Shown piece by piece: positions 5,500-20,180 of a stretch of 20,460 nt of DNA. The notes below the pieces were generated by a model. That model worked only from the letters and a program-made list of their open reading frames with translations. It did not search any database and was not told the DNA's origin. A program made the translations under genes and the position numbers. This stretch comes from Collinsella sp. AF08-23 (GTDB taxonomy: Bacteria > Actinomycetota > Coriobacteriia > Coriobacteriales > Coriobacteriaceae). Every line of letters starts with the position of its first letter. Positions within the stretch are counted from its first letter, which is position 1. The DNA lies in NCBI RefSeq assembly GCF_003479805.1, contig NZ_QUHV01000014.1, positions 39,998-60,457 of the forward strand, read 5' to 3'.

Positions 5500-5919
5500 T
5501 TAGCAGACGGTCTCCTCGCCCAGGCGATACAGTTCCTCGTTCACCTTCTGGAGGCTGCACCCCTGGCCGATGCAAAAGATGATGATTGCATCGCGGCGGA
5601 ATTTGGGGTTGAGGGAGCTCGTCCCGGCGGCTCTGAGCGCCCGGTTCGTCTCGCGCAGGGTGAGTGCCATGGCGAAGGCAATCTGCAGGACCTTGTCGCG
5701 CGAGGGGTTGCGGGCACCCGTGAAGATCTGGTAGCCGAACGTCTCGTTGAGGTCTGCCATGCGCACCACGCGCGAGCGCTTGAGGTGCTTTTTCTCGAGC
5801 ATGTGCCCCAAGAATCCCGCCAGCGTCTCAGCAGGGAATTCGCGCCCGTCGACGAACGCGTCGAGGCTCGGCGCATCCAACAGCTCCTGCAGCACTTCTT
5901 CAGTTAACCGCTCCGTCAT
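5500..5919 (-). CDS. Small helix-turn-helix protein coupled to the kinase
   Basis: The 139-residue product contains an XRE-like helix-turn-helix region at about residues 45-98 (RMADLNETFGYQIFTGARNPSRDKVLQIAFAM), in which the FTGARNPSRDKVL stretch looks like the recognition helix and what follows. A charged N-terminal helix and a C-terminal region with two Cys (116, 121) flank it. The start at 5919 has GGAGG six bases upstream. Its stop codon abuts the kinase start codon, so the two are almost certainly made together. A reasonable inference is that the kinase phosphorylates or otherwise works with this putative DNA-binding protein, but nothing in the sequence proves that. The assignment as an HTH protein is firmer than any regulatory target. 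Confidence 0.8.
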   Translation of the reverse strand: MTERLTEEVLQELLDAPSLDAFVDGREFPAETLAGFLGHMLEKKHLKRSRVVRMADLNETFGYQIFTGARNPSRDKVLQIAFAMALTLRETNRALRAAGTSSLNPKFRRDAIIIFCIGQGCSLQKVNEELYRLGEETVC

Positions 5920-5965
5920 GACCGGCCTCCACTTTCTCCATTCCCATTGTAATCACGTTCTACGC

Positions 5966-5994
5966 AAAGGGGCGCATGCCCGATGCGCCCCTTT
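5966..5994 (-). terminator. Strong hairpin, probable terminator of the DUF4190-like gene
   Basis: A perfect 12-bp stem (AAAGGGGCGCAT with ATGCGCCCCTTT) closes a 5-base loop. It lies between the stop at 6116 and the start at 5919, both leftward. The U tract is only the three Ts of the stem, so termination is likely but not certain; it may act in both directions. Confidence 0.7.
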
Positions 5995-6115
5995 GGCCCA
6001 AATCACCGCCACGTTCCGATCGATGCGATTATGCCGGGACTTTCGCCAGGCACCTCACATGTGCCGAGGTTCCCCACACCCGCGCGAATTCCCAGCGGCA
6101 CCCCGTTCAAACCGC

Positions 6116-6850
6116 TTAGGCTATCGCCCAAGTCGCAGCGGGCTTGTCGGCAAATGGCGAAGAATAATACAGGATGCTCGAGACATCGCCCTCGAAGTAC
6201 ACATAGCCGCTCACCGTGCCTCCCGCCGACAGGTCACCAAAGGAAAGCTCTTCGGTCGCCTCGGAATAATACGTATTATCGCCCTGGACGCCGTTCGCGC
6301 TCTCCCCCTTCCAGTCGTACGAGTTGAACGATAGCTTTTCATCGCTGTTGTTCGTGTAGGTGACGCGCACACCGGTCATGGCGGTGCCATCGTAATTGGT
6401 GAGGCCCGGCGTGACCTCGTCCACCGAAACCGTCATGCCGTTGGACAGCTCGACCGAAGCTCCCACGGCGAGCTTCTCATCAGCAGACGACGTAGGCTCA
6501 TCATCGCTGGAATCATCGTCCTCAGAGGCATCGTCCTTTGAAGACTGCACGGCCTTCGGGCCGTTCACGGCGTCGTCGATTGCAGCGCTATACATGCTCT
6601 GGCTACCCAAAACAGCTGCAACGGAAACGATGTTCACCACAATCGCGGCGATGGCGAGGCCCTTGCCCGCGCGCTTTCCACGCAGGCAAGACACAAGCCC
6701 GGCAATGGCGAGCACGGCGCCGACGAGCGCCATGAAGAACGACACGTTGTTGATGATCGGCAGCAAGGACGTGAGGAGCGCGATGATTCCGAGCACCAAC
6801 CCGGCAATGGCGATCCCGGAACGCGGCTGTTTTACCTGATTATTTTCCAC
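6116..6850 (-). CDS. DUF4190-like membrane protein with DUF4352-like extracellular domain
   Basis: This 244-residue protein has hydrophobic segments at about 12-32, 35-55 and 64-82. The first two resemble the DUF4190 membrane module (SGIAIAGLVLGIIALL, with Gly-rich turns). An acidic Ser/Asp linker (about 103-125) leads to a C-terminal beta-rich domain of about 115 residues resembling the DUF4352/telokin-like fold (AVGASVELSNGMTVSVDEV). It is probably displayed on the cell surface; a function cannot be named. The start is GTG at 6850, supported by GGGAGGG six bases upstream. It is transcribed alone, with a hairpin downstream at 5966-5994. Expansion of the acidic linker is common in surface proteins and gives no further clue. 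Confidence 0.8.
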   Translation of the reverse strand: MENNQVKQPRSGIAIAGLVLGIIALLTSLLPIINNVSFFMALVGAVLAIAGLVSCLRGKRAGKGLAIAAIVVNIVSVAAVLGSQSMYSAAIDDAVNGPKAVQSSKDDASEDDDSSDDEPTSSADEKLAVGASVELSNGMTVSVDEVTPGLTNYDGTAMTGVRVTYTNNSDEKLSFNSYDWKGESANGVQGDNTYYSEATEELSFGDLSAGGTVSGYVYFEGDVSSILYYSSPFADKPAATWAIA

Positions 6851-13815: not shown

Positions 13816-15519
13816 CTACACCTCGTAACTATCCGTAAAATCGGGATCGACGCCCGGCGCCTCCTCGACGGCGACGCCCTCGCGGGCAGCGCGCTCCGCC
13901 TCCTCGCGGGCCTCGTCGAACTTCGCCTTCATGGTTTTGTTACCCCAGGTAAGCTTGCGGATGCTGAGCCCCTGGGCTTTGTCGTTCGCCAGACGCAGGT
14001 TGTTCTCGCTCGAGATCAGATTGTCCTTGACCTTCTGCAGGTGCTTGATGGTGGCGTCGATCTCATCGATGGCCGTCTGGAACTTGCGGCTCGCCAGGTC
14101 GTAGTTGCGGTTGAAGCCCTCCTGGAATCCCAGCAGCTTTTCCTCGAACTCTGTGACGTCGATGTTCTGTTGGCGTACGAGCTCGAGCTCCTGCTTGTAG
14201 GCGAGCGCGTTCATGGCGGCGTTACGCAGCAGCGTGATCATGGGGATGAAGAACTGCGGGCGGATCACGTACATCTTCTCGTAGCGGTAGCTCACGTCCA
14301 CGATGCCCGTGTTGTACAGCTCGCTCTCCGGCTCGAGCAGAGTGACCAGCACCGCGTACTCGCAGCCCTTCTTCTTGCGGTCCGAATCGAGCTTCTTGAA
14401 GAAGTCCTCGTTCTTGTGCTTGGTGGCCGTGGTGTCGTTCTCGTTCTTCATCTCGAACATGATCGAGACGATCTCATTACCGGCCTCATCGCACTCGCGG
14501 AAGATGAAGTCACCCTTGGTGCCGTCGGAGGCGTCGTTGTCCTTCTCGAAGTAGGCACGAGGGAACGCCGTGGCGCGCAGCTGATTGAACTGGGTCTCGC
14601 AGTGCTGCTCGAGGGTCTCGCCCACCATCTTGGTGGAGAGGCGCGCCTTCATATCGCGCAGGCGCTCGATCTCCTCGTCCTTGTAGCGGATAAGGTCCTG
14701 AGCGCTCTTGCGGGCCTGCTCGATCTCGAGCGCGTGGGCGGTCTCGATCTGCCGCTTCTCCGCCTCGCGCGTCTCGTGGTCGGCGGCGCGGCCGTCCTTT
14801 TCGCGCGCGAGGTCAAAGCGAGCCGCATCCAGGTCGTGAGCGAGCTTGGCGCGCTCCTCCTCGAAGGCGGTGCGCGCCTCATTCACAGCTTGCGTCACCG
14901 CGAGATCTCGCTGGGTGGCGCCGGCGTCCAGCTGCGCCTTGAGCGAGGCGATCTGCGCATCGCGCGCGGCGACCATCTGGCGCAGCTCCTCTTTTTTGTC
15001 GGCGGCGTCCTGCTGCACGACCATGCGCTCGCGCTGGGCGGCGACCTTCACCGCAGACTCGCGCTCCTCAACGGCGGACTCGAGCTTGGCGGAGAGCTCG
15101 GCGATGCGGGCATCCGCCTCGGCACGGACACGCATGAGCTCGGCGGCGCGCTCAGCCTGCTCGCTCGCCAGCTTTGCGGAGCTCGCCGCGTTCGCCTCCT
15201 GCAGGGCCGCGGCGCCCTGCGCTCGCGCCTCCTGCAGCTCGGCGGCACTGCGGGCCTTGGCCTCCTGTAGCTCTGCCGCGCCGCGTGCGAGCGCCTCCTG
15301 CAGCTCGGCCTTCTGGGCCGCCATCGTGCGGTCGAGCTCTGCCTTGGCCTGAGAGCGGGCGAGCTCGAGCGCCTGCTCGTGCTCGCGACGCAGCGAGGCG
15401 GCGCGCTCCTCCACCTCATGGGCGAACTGATCATCTCGCACCTGACGGACAATGCCCTCGTAATCGCTCTCATCGAGATTGATGACCGTACCGCACTTGG
15501 GACACGTGACCTGGTTCAT
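13816..15519 (-). CDS. DUF2130 coiled-coil protein with nuclease-like core
   Basis: The 567-residue protein starts with a zinc-finger-like CPKCG (6-10), continues as a long coiled coil (about 30-295) and ends with a restriction-endonuclease-like domain. GDFIF (Asp337) followed by FEMK (Glu356, Lys358) fits the D...ExK core of PD-(D/E)XK nucleases. DUF2130 proteins resemble RmuC in layout and are thought to act on DNA, but no activity is established that I can cite. The coiled coil includes about four 11-residue AELQEAxARGA repeats at 71-110. The start at 15519 has GAGGAG seven bases upstream; an in-frame Met 16 codons earlier has no site. ygbA follows directly and is probably in the same operon. 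Confidence 0.88.
   Translation of the reverse strand: MNQVTCPKCGTVINLDESDYEGIVRQVRDDQFAHEVEERAASLRREHEQALELARSQAKAELDRTMAAQKAELQEALARGAAELQEAKARSAAELQEARAQGAAALQEANAASSAKLASEQAERAAELMRVRAEADARIAELSAKLESAVEERESAVKVAAQRERMVVQQDAADKKEELRQMVAARDAQIASLKAQLDAGATQRDLAVTQAVNEARTAFEEERAKLAHDLDAARFDLAREKDGRAADHETREAEKRQIETAHALEIEQARKSAQDLIRYKDEEIERLRDMKARLSTKMVGETLEQHCETQFNQLRATAFPRAYFEKDNDASDGTKGDFIFRECDEAGNEIVSIMFEMKNENDTTATKHKNEDFFKKLDSDRKKKGCEYAVLVTLLEPESELYNTGIVDVSYRYEKMYVIRPQFFIPMITLLRNAAMNALAYKQELELVRQQNIDVTEFEEKLLGFQEGFNRNYDLASRKFQTAIDEIDATIKHLQKVKDNLISSENNLRLANDKAQGLSIRKLTWGNKTMKAKFDEAREEAERAAREGVAVEEAPGVDPDFTDSYEV
15190..15309. repeat. 33-bp tandem repeats in the DUF2130 coiled coil
   Basis: About four imperfect 33-bp units, each containing a GCCTCCTG[CT]AG-like core on the + strand, encode 11-residue AELQEAxARGA units. 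The period keeps frame and suits a hendecad coiled coil, so length variation between strains is likely. Confidence 0.7.
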
Positions 15520-15581
15520 ATGCCTGCTCCTCGTCTGGCCGCCACCCGAAGGCTCATCCGAGCCCATTCCATATGCTTCGA

Positions 15582-15660: not shown

Positions 15661-16884
15661 TCATCGGACAGACGCCACCATCCTGCGGATACTCGGCAAA
15701 CTCGAGGCTTCCTCCAGTATGGCGATCAGTTCGTCAGCCTGGAAGAACACACCACGACGCCTGTTTCCAATCGGCCGTAAGATCTCATATTCACATGCCC
15801 TGGACACAACGTTTTGTGCCGCGCGTGGAGTGATATCCAATTCGCTCGCGACGTACGCAACGTTGACCACCGGCTGCTCCGCCAATATGGACGGCAGCTT
15901 ATAGATGCTGGAATTTTCGCGCTCGGTCATTATCTCGCGCCAGCCCTCGAACACGTCATCGAGGCTCCTCGCCACGAGCCTGCCCACCACAAGAGACAAC
16001 TCAAGCGCCTCCACGAGCTGCCTGACCACGGCGATGGGATCACCTTGCTGATACGCATCGAGAGACTCCATGTAGGCATCTACGTTGTGAAGCAGGCCCG
16101 CGGACACGGGCAGTGTGACATGGGACATCACCCCGGATTTGCGCAGCATCTTGTGCAGCAACACACGGCCCGTCCGCCCGTTCCCATCAATGAACGGGTG
16201 AACCGTTTCGAACTGTGCATGCAAAACCGCGGCCTGAACGACGGGGTCGACATCATCGCGTGAGGCAAAGCGAACCATGTCGTCAAGATACTCGGGAACG
16301 CGCTCCCATGCCGGCGGCACATACTGAGCGCCGTGGGGACTGTACGGGGTCCCTCCCACCCAAACCTGCTCTTCCCGTAACTCTCCTCCAAATGTCTCAC
16401 CGCTCCAATTGATCAGAGCCCGATGAATATCGAGGATTGATTCGACGGTCAGTTCGTCACGAGCGGACAGCGCCTCTCGCATCGCAGCGATGTTTCCCGC
16501 GATGAGGCGGGCGTTCTGAGGCGTCTCATCGGTCAGCTCCGCCAACGCGACGTTTCGAACACTTGAGGTGAGCCGTTCAATCTGAGAGCTTGCGGAGGAT
16601 TCGCTTCTCAACAGGAGGGCGGGCAGGTCATACCCGCGCTCAGCCTGTTCGCCATCAAAACGGGCGATCGATATGAGCAGGTCGGACATGCGCGCCGAAA
16701 GAACCGAATCAAGGAAGACGTCCTTGTGCGTAATCATGTGCGGAACCGCGGCATCGTACTCGGGCAATATTCTTCTACGGGCGCTTTTGGGAAAAAACTC
16801 GAGCTCGTCTGGGTCGCGCTGCCACGCTCGCTGTTCATACGAGATTGGCTGCCATTGATTAAGCCGTCTGCCCGCTGCCACCAT
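15661..16884 (-). CDS. Fic-domain AMP-transferase with C-terminal winged helix
   Basis: The 407-residue protein has a Fic_N-like N-terminal region, a Fic core with the full motif HPFIDGNGRTGR (229-240) and a C-terminal HTH region (about 345-385, VNVAYVASELDITPRAAQNVVSRA). Fic enzymes usually transfer AMP from ATP to Ser, Thr or Tyr of target proteins. The helix RSESSASSQIERL (93-105) carries an SxxxE inhibitory pattern (Ser99-Glu103), with Arg104 where G or N is usual, so the enzyme is probably self-inhibited. The start at 16884 has AAGGAAG about five bases upstream; longer reading frames run through the upstream palindromes and are unlikely. Three phased palindromes upstream suggest tight control, perhaps by its own HTH domain. 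No antitoxin gene is adjacent. Confidence 0.93.
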   Translation of the reverse strand: MVAAGRRLNQWQPISYEQRAWQRDPDELEFFPKSARRRILPEYDAAVPHMITHKDVFLDSVLSARMSDLLISIARFDGEQAERGYDLPALLLRSESSASSQIERLTSSVRNVALAELTDETPQNARLIAGNIAAMREALSARDELTVESILDIHRALINWSGETFGGELREEQVWVGGTPYSPHGAQYVPPAWERVPEYLDDMVRFASRDDVDPVVQAAVLHAQFETVHPFIDGNGRTGRVLLHKMLRKSGVMSHVTLPVSAGLLHNVDAYMESLDAYQQGDPIAVVRQLVEALELSLVVGRLVARSLDDVFEGWREIMTERENSSIYKLPSILAEQPVVNVAYVASELDITPRAAQNVVSRACEYEILRPIGNRRRGVFFQADELIAILEEASSLPSIRRMVASVR

Positions 16885-16907
16885 TTTTACTTCCTTTACA
16901 TAGCTGC

Positions 16908-16939
16908 TAACGGAAGTGAACTGGATTTCACTTCCGTTA
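16908..16939. promoter_or_regulatory. Operator-like palindrome 1 upstream of fic
   Basis: TAACGGAAGTGAA and TTCACTTCCGTTA, perfect 13-base arms, flank a 6-base spacer. It lies 24 bases before the fic start and overlaps the probable transcription start. Confidence 0.82.
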
Positions 16940-16944
16940 TTGTA
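16939..16944 (-). promoter_or_regulatory. -10 box candidate for fic
   Basis: TACAAT read leftward matches five of six -10 positions. It sits at the edge of palindrome 1, between palindromes 1 and 2, so a bound protein would block RNA polymerase. No convincing -35 box is visible. Confidence 0.45.
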
Positions 16945-16952
16945 GCTTAAGA

Positions 16953-16974
16953 GAAGTGAACTATATTTCACTTC
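16953..16974. promoter_or_regulatory. Operator-like palindrome 2 upstream of fic
   Basis: GAAGTGAA and TTCACTTC flank a 6-base spacer. The core is the same as in the other two copies but the outer bases have diverged, which suggests a weaker site. Its centre is 40 bp from that of palindrome 1. Confidence 0.78.
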
Positions 16975-16988
16975 CGATAGCATATGGC

Positions 16989-17020
16989 TAACGGAAGTGA
17001 AACTCGATTCACTTCCGTTA
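16989..17020. promoter_or_regulatory. Operator-like palindrome 3 upstream of fic
   Basis: This has the same perfect 13-base arms as palindrome 1 around a 6-base spacer. Its centre is 41 bp from palindrome 2. The stop codon of the upstream GNAT gene (17018-17020) lies inside its right end. Confidence 0.82.
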
Positions 17021-17623
17021 GGTGCCCTCTTTTGGAAGCGAGCTGCTCGCGGCGCCGTCTTCCCTTGAGGGAAGGGCGCGACGCAGATACACCATGTCCC
17101 TGAGCTGAACTCCCGCCTCGATAATCGGATGGTCGTAGTTGTCGACGAAGAAATTGGGCAGCACATGTGAACGCGCGAAGCCGCACGTCTCGTAAAACGG
17201 CACGGTAAGCGGGCTATCCCCCGTGCCCACCTGCAGCACGCCGTGCGTGGGCGCGTACCGGGTGGCCGCAAAGTCCAGAAGGGCGCGACCCACGCCGCGG
17301 CGCTGGAACTCGGGAGCGACCGCCAGGTTCTTCACCTCGGCAATGCGCGCACCGGAGGCGTCAACGCCCTCGTCAGTCACGATCATGCAACCGAGGACGG
17401 GCGCGGGCCGGACCGAAAGCTCAGATTCGGCTCCACTCATAGGGGTGAGTCCGGAGCTCTCAGCTGAAGCGCATCCCAAATCTCCCCATCCGAACGCCGC
17501 GTACATATCGCCTCGGCGCAAATAGCGCTCGACCATATCCCACTGCTCATCGGCAAGCAGGAGCAGGTCGCGGTATCGCTCACGGTCGCGATCGACGGAT
17601 GCGATGTGAAGGGACAACGTCAC
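17018..17623 (-). CDS. GNAT-family N-acetyltransferase
   Basis: The 201-residue protein has the acetyl-CoA binding motif VKNLAVAPEFQRRGVGRALLDFA, with the Q-R-R-G-V-G pyrophosphate loop, followed by PFYETCGFARSHV, a typical GNAT beta-6/7 region. The N-terminal LLLADEQWDMVERYLRRGDMY is shared by a branch of GNAT proteins with unknown acceptor. I chose GTG 17623 because GGGAG lies seven bases upstream and the product then begins like its relatives; ATG 17665 would add 14 residues with a poor site. A short insertion (about 65-85, SAESSGLTPMSGAESE) is unusual. The stop lies in the first operator upstream of fic. No shared function with fic is evident. Confidence 0.85.
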   Translation of the reverse strand: MTLSLHIASVDRDRERYRDLLLLADEQWDMVERYLRRGDMYAAFGWGDLGCASAESSGLTPMSGAESELSVRPAPVLGCMIVTDEGVDASGARIAEVKNLAVAPEFQRRGVGRALLDFAATRYAPTHGVLQVGTGDSPLTVPFYETCGFARSHVLPNFFVDNYDHPIIEAGVQLRDMVYLRRALPSREDGAASSSLPKEGT

Positions 17624-17983
17624 GAGTGAACTCCCAAAGCCATCGAAGGGTGATTGCGGCGTCATTGTAGCGTGCCTTTTCACCCTCGTCTCTGGGTCGA
17701 AAGCCACAAATCGAGTGATTTTGTAACGAATAATCGGAAGGGGCAAGTAGACGGGCAAAACCGACGGCATAACCGCTGATAAACTCCTTTACTTTTTCCC
17801 TCTATCCGGCCATGCAATTTCTTCGTTACAAAAACGCTCGATTTGCGGCAATCCGCTTTGGACACGACAACGAGAACGACCTTCACGCCATCTGGCATCC
17901 TCTGGGAAGTCTGCCAGCGGGGACCGGAGCGGCGGCGGACTGCGCACCGGGAACCGCAACGTCAGGCTGTACGCTGGGTTAAC
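17624..17983. other. 360-bp region without a convincing gene
   Basis: Apart from the inverted-repeat element at 17703-17849 nothing could be supported here. A leftward 72-codon frame (17680-17898) spans the element and looks like chance. No promoter for the GNAT gene and no terminator for the HIRAN gene were recognised. Confidence 0.6.
17703..17849. repeat. 147-bp MITE-like element with 28-bp inverted repeats
   Basis: Bases 17703-17730 are complementary to 17822-17849 with three mismatches; the inner ends read TTTTGTAACGAA and TTCGTTACAAAA. The 91-base interior is AT-richer than the surroundings and has no supported gene. The structure fits a miniature inverted-repeat element or a large RNA hairpin. 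No transposase lies nearby and no clear target duplication is seen. Confidence 0.7.
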
Positions 17984-18310
17984 TTACCGCGAGTCGGTCA
18001 CGAACACGGCGGCGCGGACCTGATGCCACGGACTGCGTTCGGGCGCGACCTGGAGCACGCGGCACTCGAAGACGTCCTCGTGACCGTAGAAGAACATGGT
18101 CGAGAGCGGCCCCACCAAATCAGCTGGGATGTAACCGAGCATGGTGCCGTGGAACTTGACGGCGATGGCGTCAGCGTCGTGCGGGTTATCGCGCTCCGGC
18201 TCGAGGTCGAGCGTGTCGCCCGCTTTGAGCTCGTTGAGGACAAGCGCACCGTCGTGGTGCTGGAATCCGGCGATATTGAACGTGAACAGATTGCGTGACG
18301 GCTCGTACAT
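17984..18310 (-). CDS. Stand-alone HIRAN-domain protein
   Basis: Almost the whole 108-residue protein is a HIRAN domain. FNIAGFQHHDGALVLNEL is followed by GDTLDLEPERDNPHDADAIAV and LGYIPADL, the conserved core of the family. In eukaryotic Rad5/HLTF the domain recognises DNA 3' ends; bacterial single-domain forms are believed to bind DNA, often near helicases or nucleases. The start at 18310 has GAAGGGAG six bases upstream. It is divergent from the DUF262/HNH gene, 154 bp away, and may share a control region with it. Base composition is like the main chromosome, unlike the AT-richer DUF262 gene, so the two need not have arrived together. Confidence 0.88.
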   Translation of the reverse strand: MYEPSRNLFTFNIAGFQHHDGALVLNELKAGDTLDLEPERDNPHDADAIAVKFHGTMLGYIPADLVGPLSTMFFYGHEDVFECRVLQVAPERSPWHQVRAAVFVTDSR

Positions 18311-18464
18311 GGTGGACTCCCTTCAAGCCCTGCACCGCGCTCCGTTTACGCGGCTTTTTCTACGGCTTAAAGGTACGACCCCGTGCAGACAAAATGACGA
18401 TCTACCCAACTTGACGCCGAGCAGCGCATTGATAGATCATGCAACCAGTCGAAGGAGGCATCCC

Positions 18465-20180
18465 ATGCACACCGTCCAATACGAAATCATCAACATTCCT
18501 GCCATCGATCTGGAACGAATTAAGTTGCCAAGATTCCAGCGTAAGCTCGTGTGGCCAAGAAGCAAAAAAGAGCAGTTTATCAATACTCTTCATGAGGGAC
18601 TGCCCTTCGGGTCGGTGTTGGTCTATCCCGAAAGCCAAGAGCCGGATGCCAACCTCCTCATCATAGACGGCCAGCAGAGACTATCAACCATCATCGAATT
18701 CAACCGCGACCGTCTTAAGTTTTGGAAACCACTGAACCCAGAGATTTATGGAAGTGCACTTCTCTCAATCAACAGCTCCCTTCCGGACGGTGCCCAACTC
18801 AGCGAGTCAGAATTTGATAACCTCCTTCATCAAGACAGGCGTTCTCTCGATGACTGGCTTGACGATATCGATGACAAGGCGAGCCGGAAAACCGTGCGTG
18901 CGGAATTTGGAAGAATCGAGCAGGAGCTATCCAATTATGTCGATTTCTCCAGCCTCCTCATACCCGCAATCAAGTTCATCGGTGACAAGAGCCTTATCGC
19001 AGAGGTCTTCTCTCGTCTGAATCAAGGTGGCGTTAAATTATCGAAATACCAGGTATTCAGTGCCGCTTGGATACACACGCAAATCAAACTCTCTACATCC
19101 GAACTTCAAAACGACATTTTGGAAAATGTAAAGAAGTACTACACATCCATGGGAAAGGGAGCAGCTTTTGAACTCGATGACTTTTCTGAAGATGCATTGA
19201 CCGCGACTAGAATAATCACCCTCTCCGACCTCGCCATCGCTCTTGGAATGTACATGCAGGAGCACCTGAATTCACTCGCCCCTCAAACCGACAATAAGAT
19301 TGCTGAACTCGGATTCGGCCTTCTGGGCGTCGCCGTCGATCTCGATAATCGAAAATTGGGAAAGCTACTCGACTACTCCGACTTTATCCAATCCAATCTC
19401 CAGATCATCCTGGAAAAGACCGAGCGCATCTGCAGCAATCTGCAAGACGTGTTTTCAAAAATGTTGAAGGTCGTCAAGGCCAACAAAAGTGACGAATACG
19501 CCCGGGCACTTTCGACCAATTTCAAAACCCTGTCTTATTTTGCCGCGCTTTGGTACCTGGATCCTGACTCACCTGAGTATCGTCACACCCTTAGGAACAT
19601 TAAGGGCCATTACCTGCTCGACGCCCTTACGGGAGTCTGGAGCTCCGCCGGCGACCAGCGCCTCCTCGAGTATCAGCCAAGCTATAAAAAACGCGACTAC
19701 CTTACCCCCGTTGACCAACGCGAACTCGAATCCGCTTTCGACCAATGGCTTTCATCCAACACGGCGGGAATTCGGTTCAATGGGGAGACCAAGGCGATCA
19801 TCACTATTCATGCCAATTTAACCTACTTGGCGAAAACAGTTCCAAATGGAGAGAGCTTCGAGCTCGAGCACATCATTGCGAAAAAATACTTCGAAGCGGC
19901 GGACGAGAAAACTAGGCAGGCGCTATTTGGCAATTCCATAGGTAACTGCATGTTCCTGCCCAAAGGGCTCAACAACCGAAAGAAAGCCAAAACCCTTTAT
20001 GAGGTCAATACCGATGAGCGCTACACAAAGCTCATCACGGAGTCTTTCTATTTCTCTGAGCAAGACTTAGAGGATGCAATCGGGGCTATTGCATCTGGCA
20101 ATCGCGAGCTCGCCAACAGCATCATTAAAAGACGCGCAAAGCTTATCGCAGATGACACAGTCAGAATCCTGCTCATATAA
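18465..20180 (+). CDS. DUF262/HNH protein, GmrSD-like restriction or defence factor
   Basis: The 571-residue protein begins with a DUF262 (ParB-like nucleotide-binding) domain: LPRFQRKLVWPRSKKEQFI (21-39) and the hallmark DGQQR (68-72). Its end has a DUF1524/HNH-type pattern: ELEHIIAKK with His469, IGN (492-494) and LPKGLNNRKK (498-507). This layout is that of GmrSD-type modification-dependent nucleases, which cut modified phage DNA using nucleotides, and of related defence proteins. The start has GAAGGAGG six bases upstream. The gene is clearly AT-richer than its neighbours (19 G or C in bases 19081-19140, against 42 in 11641-11700), a sign of horizontal transfer. It converges with a C5 methyltransferase gene 27 bp away. 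Activity and trigger are inferred from family. Confidence 0.88.
   Translation: MHTVQYEIINIPAIDLERIKLPRFQRKLVWPRSKKEQFINTLHEGLPFGSVLVYPESQEPDANLLIIDGQQRLSTIIEFNRDRLKFWKPLNPEIYGSALLSINSSLPDGAQLSESEFDNLLHQDRRSLDDWLDDIDDKASRKTVRAEFGRIEQELSNYVDFSSLLIPAIKFIGDKSLIAEVFSRLNQGGVKLSKYQVFSAAWIHTQIKLSTSELQNDILENVKKYYTSMGKGAAFELDDFSEDALTATRIITLSDLAIALGMYMQEHLNSLAPQTDNKIAELGFGLLGVAVDLDNRKLGKLLDYSDFIQSNLQIILEKTERICSNLQDVFSKMLKVVKANKSDEYARALSTNFKTLSYFAALWYLDPDSPEYRHTLRNIKGHYLLDALTGVWSSAGDQRLLEYQPSYKKRDYLTPVDQRELESAFDQWLSSNTAGIRFNGETKAIITIHANLTYLAKTVPNGESFELEHIIAKKYFEAADEKTRQALFGNSIGNCMFLPKGLNNRKKAKTLYEVNTDERYTKLITESFYFSEQDLEDAIGAIASGNRELANSIIKRRAKLIADDTVRILLI

Follow-up and report, generated by a model that had tools for sequence, protein, structure and literature searches.

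The fic gene of the window, by which we mean the whole 20,460-nucleotide stretch of DNA that was analysed, is preceded by a series of inverted repeats, and the locus raises the question of which protein reads them. Two possibilities were put forward in an earlier note: Fic may repress its own gene, or a distant regulator may keep the enzyme off. Here the gene, the repeats, their counterparts in other genomes and the Fic proteins encoded beside them are considered in turn.

The fic gene and the repeats upstream of it

The fic gene and the parts of its product are as follows:

15661..16884, minus strand: fic gene, encoding a 407-aa class II-like Fic with a C-terminal winged helix (protein P0001)
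16573..16590, minus strand: inhibitory-helix motif SSQIER, residues 99-104, with the inhibitory Glu103, read from the sequence
16165..16200, minus strand: catalytic Fic motif HPFIDGNGRTGR, residues 229-240, read from the sequence and (near-)invariant in alignment A1
15706..15909, minus strand: winged helix-turn-helix domain, residues 326-393, from an AlphaFold2 model
15790..15828, minus strand: predicted recognition helix, residues 353-365, with R354 at its start, from the model and the peak of operator co-variation

By its motif and profile, the window Fic is a member of the Fic (Fido) AMP-transferase family, and AMP transfer is its predicted activity: HPFIDGNGRTGR conforms to HxFx(D/E)GNGRxxR, and the protein matches PF02661 at 1.4e-23. 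Class II Fic proteins carry an N-terminal inhibitory helix with the consensus (S/T)xxxE(G/N) before the Fic core. The glutamate (E103) is invariant in alignment A1, which comprises 53 Fic homologues; SSQIER has R where the consensus has G or N, and the same position is R, H, N, S or C in the relatives of clade A and mostly G in those of clade B (clades defined below). The C-terminal winged helix that the earlier note had read from the translation is borne out by the AlphaFold2 model, with helices at residues 326-336, 342-349 and 353-365 and strands at 370-372 and 380-382. The window Fic has the whole-length fold plus C-terminal winged helix by which SoFic-type proteins are recognised, and it scores 67.6 bits against the cut-off of 550 of the NCBIfam SoFic equivalog NF046030.

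The upstream region contains the following features (palindromes without strand):

16886..16894, minus strand: half-site 8, GGAAGTAAA, 8/9 matches, overlapping the fic Shine-Dalgarno sequence
16908..16939: palindrome 1 (half-sites 6 and 7), perfect, 13+13
16939..16944, minus strand: TACAAT, a possible -10 box on sequence grounds only
16948..16979: palindrome 2 (half-sites 4 and 5), outer bases degenerate
16989..17020: palindrome 3 (half-sites 2 and 3), perfect, 14+14, one extra base per side
17018..17626, minus strand: GNAT acetyltransferase gene upstream of fic (Pfam Acetyltransf_7, 1.9e-11)
17034..17042, plus strand: half-site 1, read there as GGAAGCGAG, 7/9 matches, within the end of the GNAT coding sequence

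A half-site scan revealed eight GGAAGTGAA-like half-sites of alternating orientation in 16886-17042, so arranged that three palindromes are flanked by a lone half-site at either end; the GNAT stop codon (17018-17020) falls within palindrome 3. The two perfect 13+13 palindromes and degenerate third copy described in the earlier note are confirmed, one of them being even 14+14, as are the distances of 40 and 41 bp between their centres and the 24 positions that separate their nearest edge from the fic ATG at 16884. Half-site centres lie alternately 15 bp apart (inside the palindromes) and 25-26 bp apart (in the outward-facing pairs joining them), with a period of 40-41 bp; counted from the minus-strand fic ATG, they are at -154, -128, -113, -87, -72, -47, -32 and -6. 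The core GAAGTGAA-N6-TTCACTTC occurs three times in the window against 0.03 expected, a number reached in none of 100 dinucleotide shuffles.

The TACAAT word noted between copies 1 and 2 is present; its reading as a promoter finds no support, the promoter scan having recognised no sigma-70-type promoter in 16800-17150. Of 44 clade A loci, 22 contain words resembling a -10 box (25 such words overall vs 9.1 in shuffles); their positions vary widely, and they were set aside as promoter evidence for that reason.

The gap between fic and the next called ORF in the window is at least 93 bp. A conserved partner gene was sought and not found at the size compared: among 31 loci, with complete ORFs of at least 120 aa and most flanks of about 1.5 kb, the most recurrent neighbour appears in at most three, and no GNAT homologue lies beside fic in the fetched loci. 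A type II toxin-antitoxin operon, the arrangement of class I Fic proteins, would have a conserved antitoxin gene next to fic; antitoxins are usually encoded by ORFs of less than 120 aa. Directly downstream of fic is a DUF2130 gene (13816-15567), homologues of which are found beside fic in L100, beside a palindrome in L020, where fic is absent, and, at a distance of 2.4 kb from the site, in L058. The GNAT gene is adjoined by a HIRAN-domain gene (minus strand) and a GmrSD-type gene (plus strand) with overlapping called ORFs (17984-20180), both of which were matched as neighbours in L061; a DEAD-box helicase with DUF3516 (E 1e-171) occupies 64-2964.

A conserved array nearly restricted to fic loci

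A protein search of 296 Coriobacteriia genomes identified a close homologue (clade A, 43-71% identity) in 39 genomes, along with more distant relatives at 29-38% (clade B) and 27-34% (clade C) identity to the window Fic. Each upstream region was scored for a palindrome with further copies at a distance of 40/41 bp, without a motif being supplied, and the array was called significant at p<0.05 against 100 shuffles per locus that kept base composition alone. It is significant upstream of 37 of the 38 testable clade A genes drawn by protein similarity alone, a result that goes against the absence of palindromes beside close Fic homologues that the earlier note had named as telling against its reading. 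The array is also significant upstream of 32 of 40 clade B genes, where the letters differ and the spacing is kept (e.g. AAAGGTTA, CCAAGGTTA, TTTCAGGTTA and TTAGGTTTA), the other eight missing p<0.05; in clade C, 10 of 19 genes reach that level and nine miss it. The corresponding figure is 4/71 for control genes from the same loci, from which Fic genes and genes with a clade A half-site word upstream were omitted. Farther afield, 15 of the 22 loci with enough upstream sequence in a phylum-wide draw plus three plasmids are significant; the loci fetched for this count and that of clade C were the 19 clade C genes, 20 of 45 phylum-wide matches and three of 147 plasmid records. Three loci (L153, L159 and L178) are borderline, at 5 of 101, barely under the limit.

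The clade A array set comprises 45 loci, namely the window, the 38 of the protein draw and six found via the palindrome (L013, L015, L019, L039, L100 and L101), and leaves out L099, in which fic is broken; the clade B set consists of 39 protein-search matches and L141. The direct-repeat, flanking half-site, Mantel, residue and sliding-window analyses use this mixed set of loci from the protein draw and via the palindrome. In the direct-repeat test (46 clade A and 40 clade B loci, 20 shuffles each), the best shift was 40 or 41 bp in 20 of the 26 clade A and four of the eight clade B loci that exceeded their shuffles. Among the loci with a called palindrome (39/46 in clade A, 28/40 in clade B), extra half-sites occur at the predicted offsets in 28 cases on the left and 24 on the right in clade A and in eight and 13 in clade B, the rate in shuffles being 0.22-0.37 hits for each locus and orientation across some 250 positions. 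The earlier note had called a triple phased operator for a single fic gene unusual; this finds no support, because arrays of this kind, with a period of 40-41 bp, are normal among the Fic genes studied here.

Were the divergent pair the dimer site, arrays should start and finish with outward-facing half-sites. At 7/10 matches, clade A arrays end outward in 30/44 cases on the left and 28/44 on the right, and at 8/10 in 25/44 and 14/44; in clade B, for which six of the 32 significant loci were left out of the count, the numbers are 15 and 14 of 26 at 7/10 and 11 and 12 at 8/10.

A scan of the genome collection found the exact 18-base core in 60 stretches, 35 of which are from Coriobacteriia (L028 being assigned via its fic fragments). 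At these 35 sites fic lies directly behind the core in 23, remnants or a deleted form of fic in five (L007, L010, L028, L032 and L053), and seven are without fic; the other 25 stretches gave no fic match. In a whole-genome search allowing up to two mismatches, the core palindrome was confined to one location in 34 of the 35 genomes, the exception (G017) having one additional match with two mismatches, and a second copy lies 40 or 41 bp away in nine of the 35. The palindrome is therefore not that of a genome-wide regulon, and the scatter upstream of unrelated genes that the earlier note had proposed to look for did not materialise. At the same stringency, the core is present in 32/39 genomes with a clade A Fic versus 18/257 others, as tallied by eye and with three of the 18 doubtful (L192, L193 and G288). 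The seven clade A genomes that miss it include five with a diverged array, one with none (L085) and one with a broken gene (L099).

Some operators have outlived part or all of their gene. Five loci (L010, L032, L053, L187 and L188) retain an operator with a C-terminal fic remnant alone. In L028, an open frame (5877-6401) behind a perfect operator joins the N-terminal part through the inhibitory helix to the winged helix and lacks the catalytic core; this variant comes from a single metagenome assembly and may be an assembly artefact, and its predicted product fits a DNA-binding role separate from catalysis. Eleven of the 296 genomes have a core palindrome beside which, within the stretch examined, no fic remnant was found; the site can therefore survive by itself. 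Loci without a remnant beside the palindrome are L003, L014, L020, L035, L038, L049, L054, L184, L185, L186, L189, L190 and L191, the last with a contig end 411 bases from the palindrome, and some fic-less palindromes are accompanied by another copy at 40 or 41 bp. In L014 an AAGGTTA-type inverted pair, seen by eye some 120-160 bp after the palindrome at 1934, resembles clade B operators and lies near this clade A-type orphan site.

Operator letters co-vary with the Fic recognition helix

Operator letters were compared with the two parts of the Fic protein at 78 loci. Seven of 85 had been dropped, their register not being settable (among these, L122, L139 and L140 each gave p 0.01); for a further five (L100, L128, L132, L135 and L138) it was assigned manually. 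The partial Mantel correlation of operator with winged helix given the catalytic part is 0.49 (p 0.001), and that of operator with catalytic part given the winged helix is 0.01 (p 0.42), figures to be read in the knowledge that such tests remove relatedness incompletely and that relatedness inflates them. Within clades, the values for winged helix and catalytic part are 0.45 and -0.16 in clade A and 0.29 and 0.07 in clade B. Such a contrast between parts of one protein, repeated in two clades, would be hard to obtain otherwise.

Among 72 sliding windows of 25 residues, the best overall is 331-355 (0.54) and the next three extend to residue 370; the best elsewhere are 101-125 (0.44) and 91-115 (0.42). 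The peak lies at 341-365 in clade A, or at 346-370 once its two most diverged members are removed, and at 336-360 in clade B. Residue 354 is the top column of the distance test overall, joint top in clade A and third in clade B after 355 and 289; when the 331 columns are ordered by normalised mutual information, it comes fourth, after three that lie outside the winged helix. The winged helix is modestly enriched among the 20 best columns (p 0.02 for all loci, 0.05 for A, 0.07 for B). Arg at residue 354 pairs with CGGAAG in 79 of 90 half-sites; it also occurs with CGGATG in the clade B member L127 and with TTGAAC in two loci. Glu is found with CAAG or CAAA in seven of seven loci, Ser with TTTC in four of four, Asn with TTGC or TTTC in two loci, and Pro with several different half-sites. 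These pairings suggest a putative recognition code that links residue 354 to the outer half-site bases.

We propose that the eight half-sites together serve as the operator array of Fic itself, and the comparisons above make it likely that Fic binds this array via its own winged helix and represses its own gene. The C-terminal winged helices of Fic dimers, or of larger assemblies, would contact the half-sites, and residue 354, which opens the recognition helix, would contribute to the reading of the outer half-site bases. Bound Fic would cover the promoter region and the ribosome-binding site, so that fic expression would be kept low. We infer physical binding, the use of dimers, a repressing and not an activating effect, and cooperative binding along the lattice of 40-41 bp.

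Between the two possibilities of the earlier note, self-repression appears favoured because the operator co-varies with the Fic recognition helix and the operators of paralogues differ; the distant regulator is unlikely. A separate protein, encoded elsewhere and with fic as its sole target, would account for palindromes that survive in some genomes without fic alongside, yet the operator letters follow the recognition helix of Fic in two clades independently, and it would be odd for a regulator with one target to co-diverge with the helix-turn-helix of another protein. No gene of at least 120 aa is regularly linked to fic in the 31 loci compared. Five genomes were seen to encode a Fic of clade A together with one of clade B, and in four of them (G004, G068, G208 and G268) the two genes carry different operators, which a single common regulator therefore cannot explain; in G068, the clade B paralogue (L132) has a strong palindrome as its operator, with p 0.069, and the operator of the second paralogue in the fifth genome, G283, was not callable.

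The repeats could also belong to a mobile element or recombination site carrying fic, in keeping with the orphan palindromes at places that lack the gene and with the absence of any gene regularly adjoining it. This is very improbable given that each genome has the palindrome at one location, in front of fic, and lacks a downstream copy at up to two mismatches, and that the sole exact core match in the viral collection is inside a coding gene, on a contig whose examined part is without fic. RNA hairpins in the fic leader, acting in attenuation or RNA stability, would fit the strong leader fold (z -10.8), which such inverted repeats must give. This reading is the least credible, since lone outer half-sites at fixed distances beyond the palindromes, conservation of sequence beyond pairing that tracks the DNA-binding helix, and the lack of a terminator-like site in the window region scanned all speak for protein sites.

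Comparison with known Fic proteins and implications

The closest parallel to the proposed self-repression is CccR from Yersinia pseudotuberculosis (PDB 7XUX), a class II Fic-HTH protein reported to repress its own promoter via inverted repeats on the basis of gel shift, footprint and reporter experiments (PMC9755527). As described there, CccR shares with the class II-like window Fic the C-terminal HTH and an inverted-repeat operator upstream of its own gene; its operator consists of two 10-bp boxes 26 bp apart, or 36 bp between centres, whereas the window half-sites are 15 and 25-26 bp apart. The open-access literature yielded no paper on a self-repressing coriobacterial Fic and no printed account of a 40-41 bp operator lattice for Fic, CccR being the subject of the relevant paper.

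Other Fic proteins are comparable in part. SoFic (PDB 3EQX, 3ZCN) is a family into which the window Fic does not fall by the equivalog cut-off; the E. coli anti-phage Sofic is described as paired with a 47-residue antitoxin encoded downstream (PMC12249575), a size below the 120 aa from which our neighbours were compared, and, according to PMC10628234, SoFic has yet to be shown to bind DNA. The Mycobacterium marinum Fic with CDP (PDB 7CB8), for which no paper was found in the open-access literature, differs from the window Fic in its recognition-helix sequence. CbFic2 from Coxiella burnetii (PDB 8CIL) is a class II Fic that has a winged helix-turn-helix, as does the class II-like window Fic, and its DNA binding is reported to favour dimers and a change from AMP transfer to AMP removal (PMC10628234). 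Because CbFic2 reportedly moves to AMP removal on DNA-driven dimerisation, it is conceivable, if rather doubtful, that the array also acts as an antitoxin: lattice-bound Fic dimers might be kept inactive or AMP-removing, the number of half-sites might set how much Fic is tolerated, and loss or copying of the DNA, for example during phage infection, might free active enzyme. Were this so, fic-less genomes with intact palindromes could be relics, or cells protected from incoming Fic.

Judged against the account of CccR, self-repression by a Fic protein is already known, and the new elements are the conserved lattice, the suggested code between residue 354 and the operator, and the spread of the array across Fic loci. 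A winged helix is present in many bacterial Fic enzymes, and among the papers considered here its use is demonstrated for CccR (PMC9755527) and CbFic2 (PMC10628234) only. In the actinobacterial Fic family studied here, the genomic record indicates that the winged helix and the upstream operator array have changed in step with each other under a constant geometry, which suggests a readable recognition code. With such a code, the operators of Fic genes that have yet to be studied could be predicted, and a direct test becomes possible of whether binding to DNA also governs the enzyme activity of Fic.
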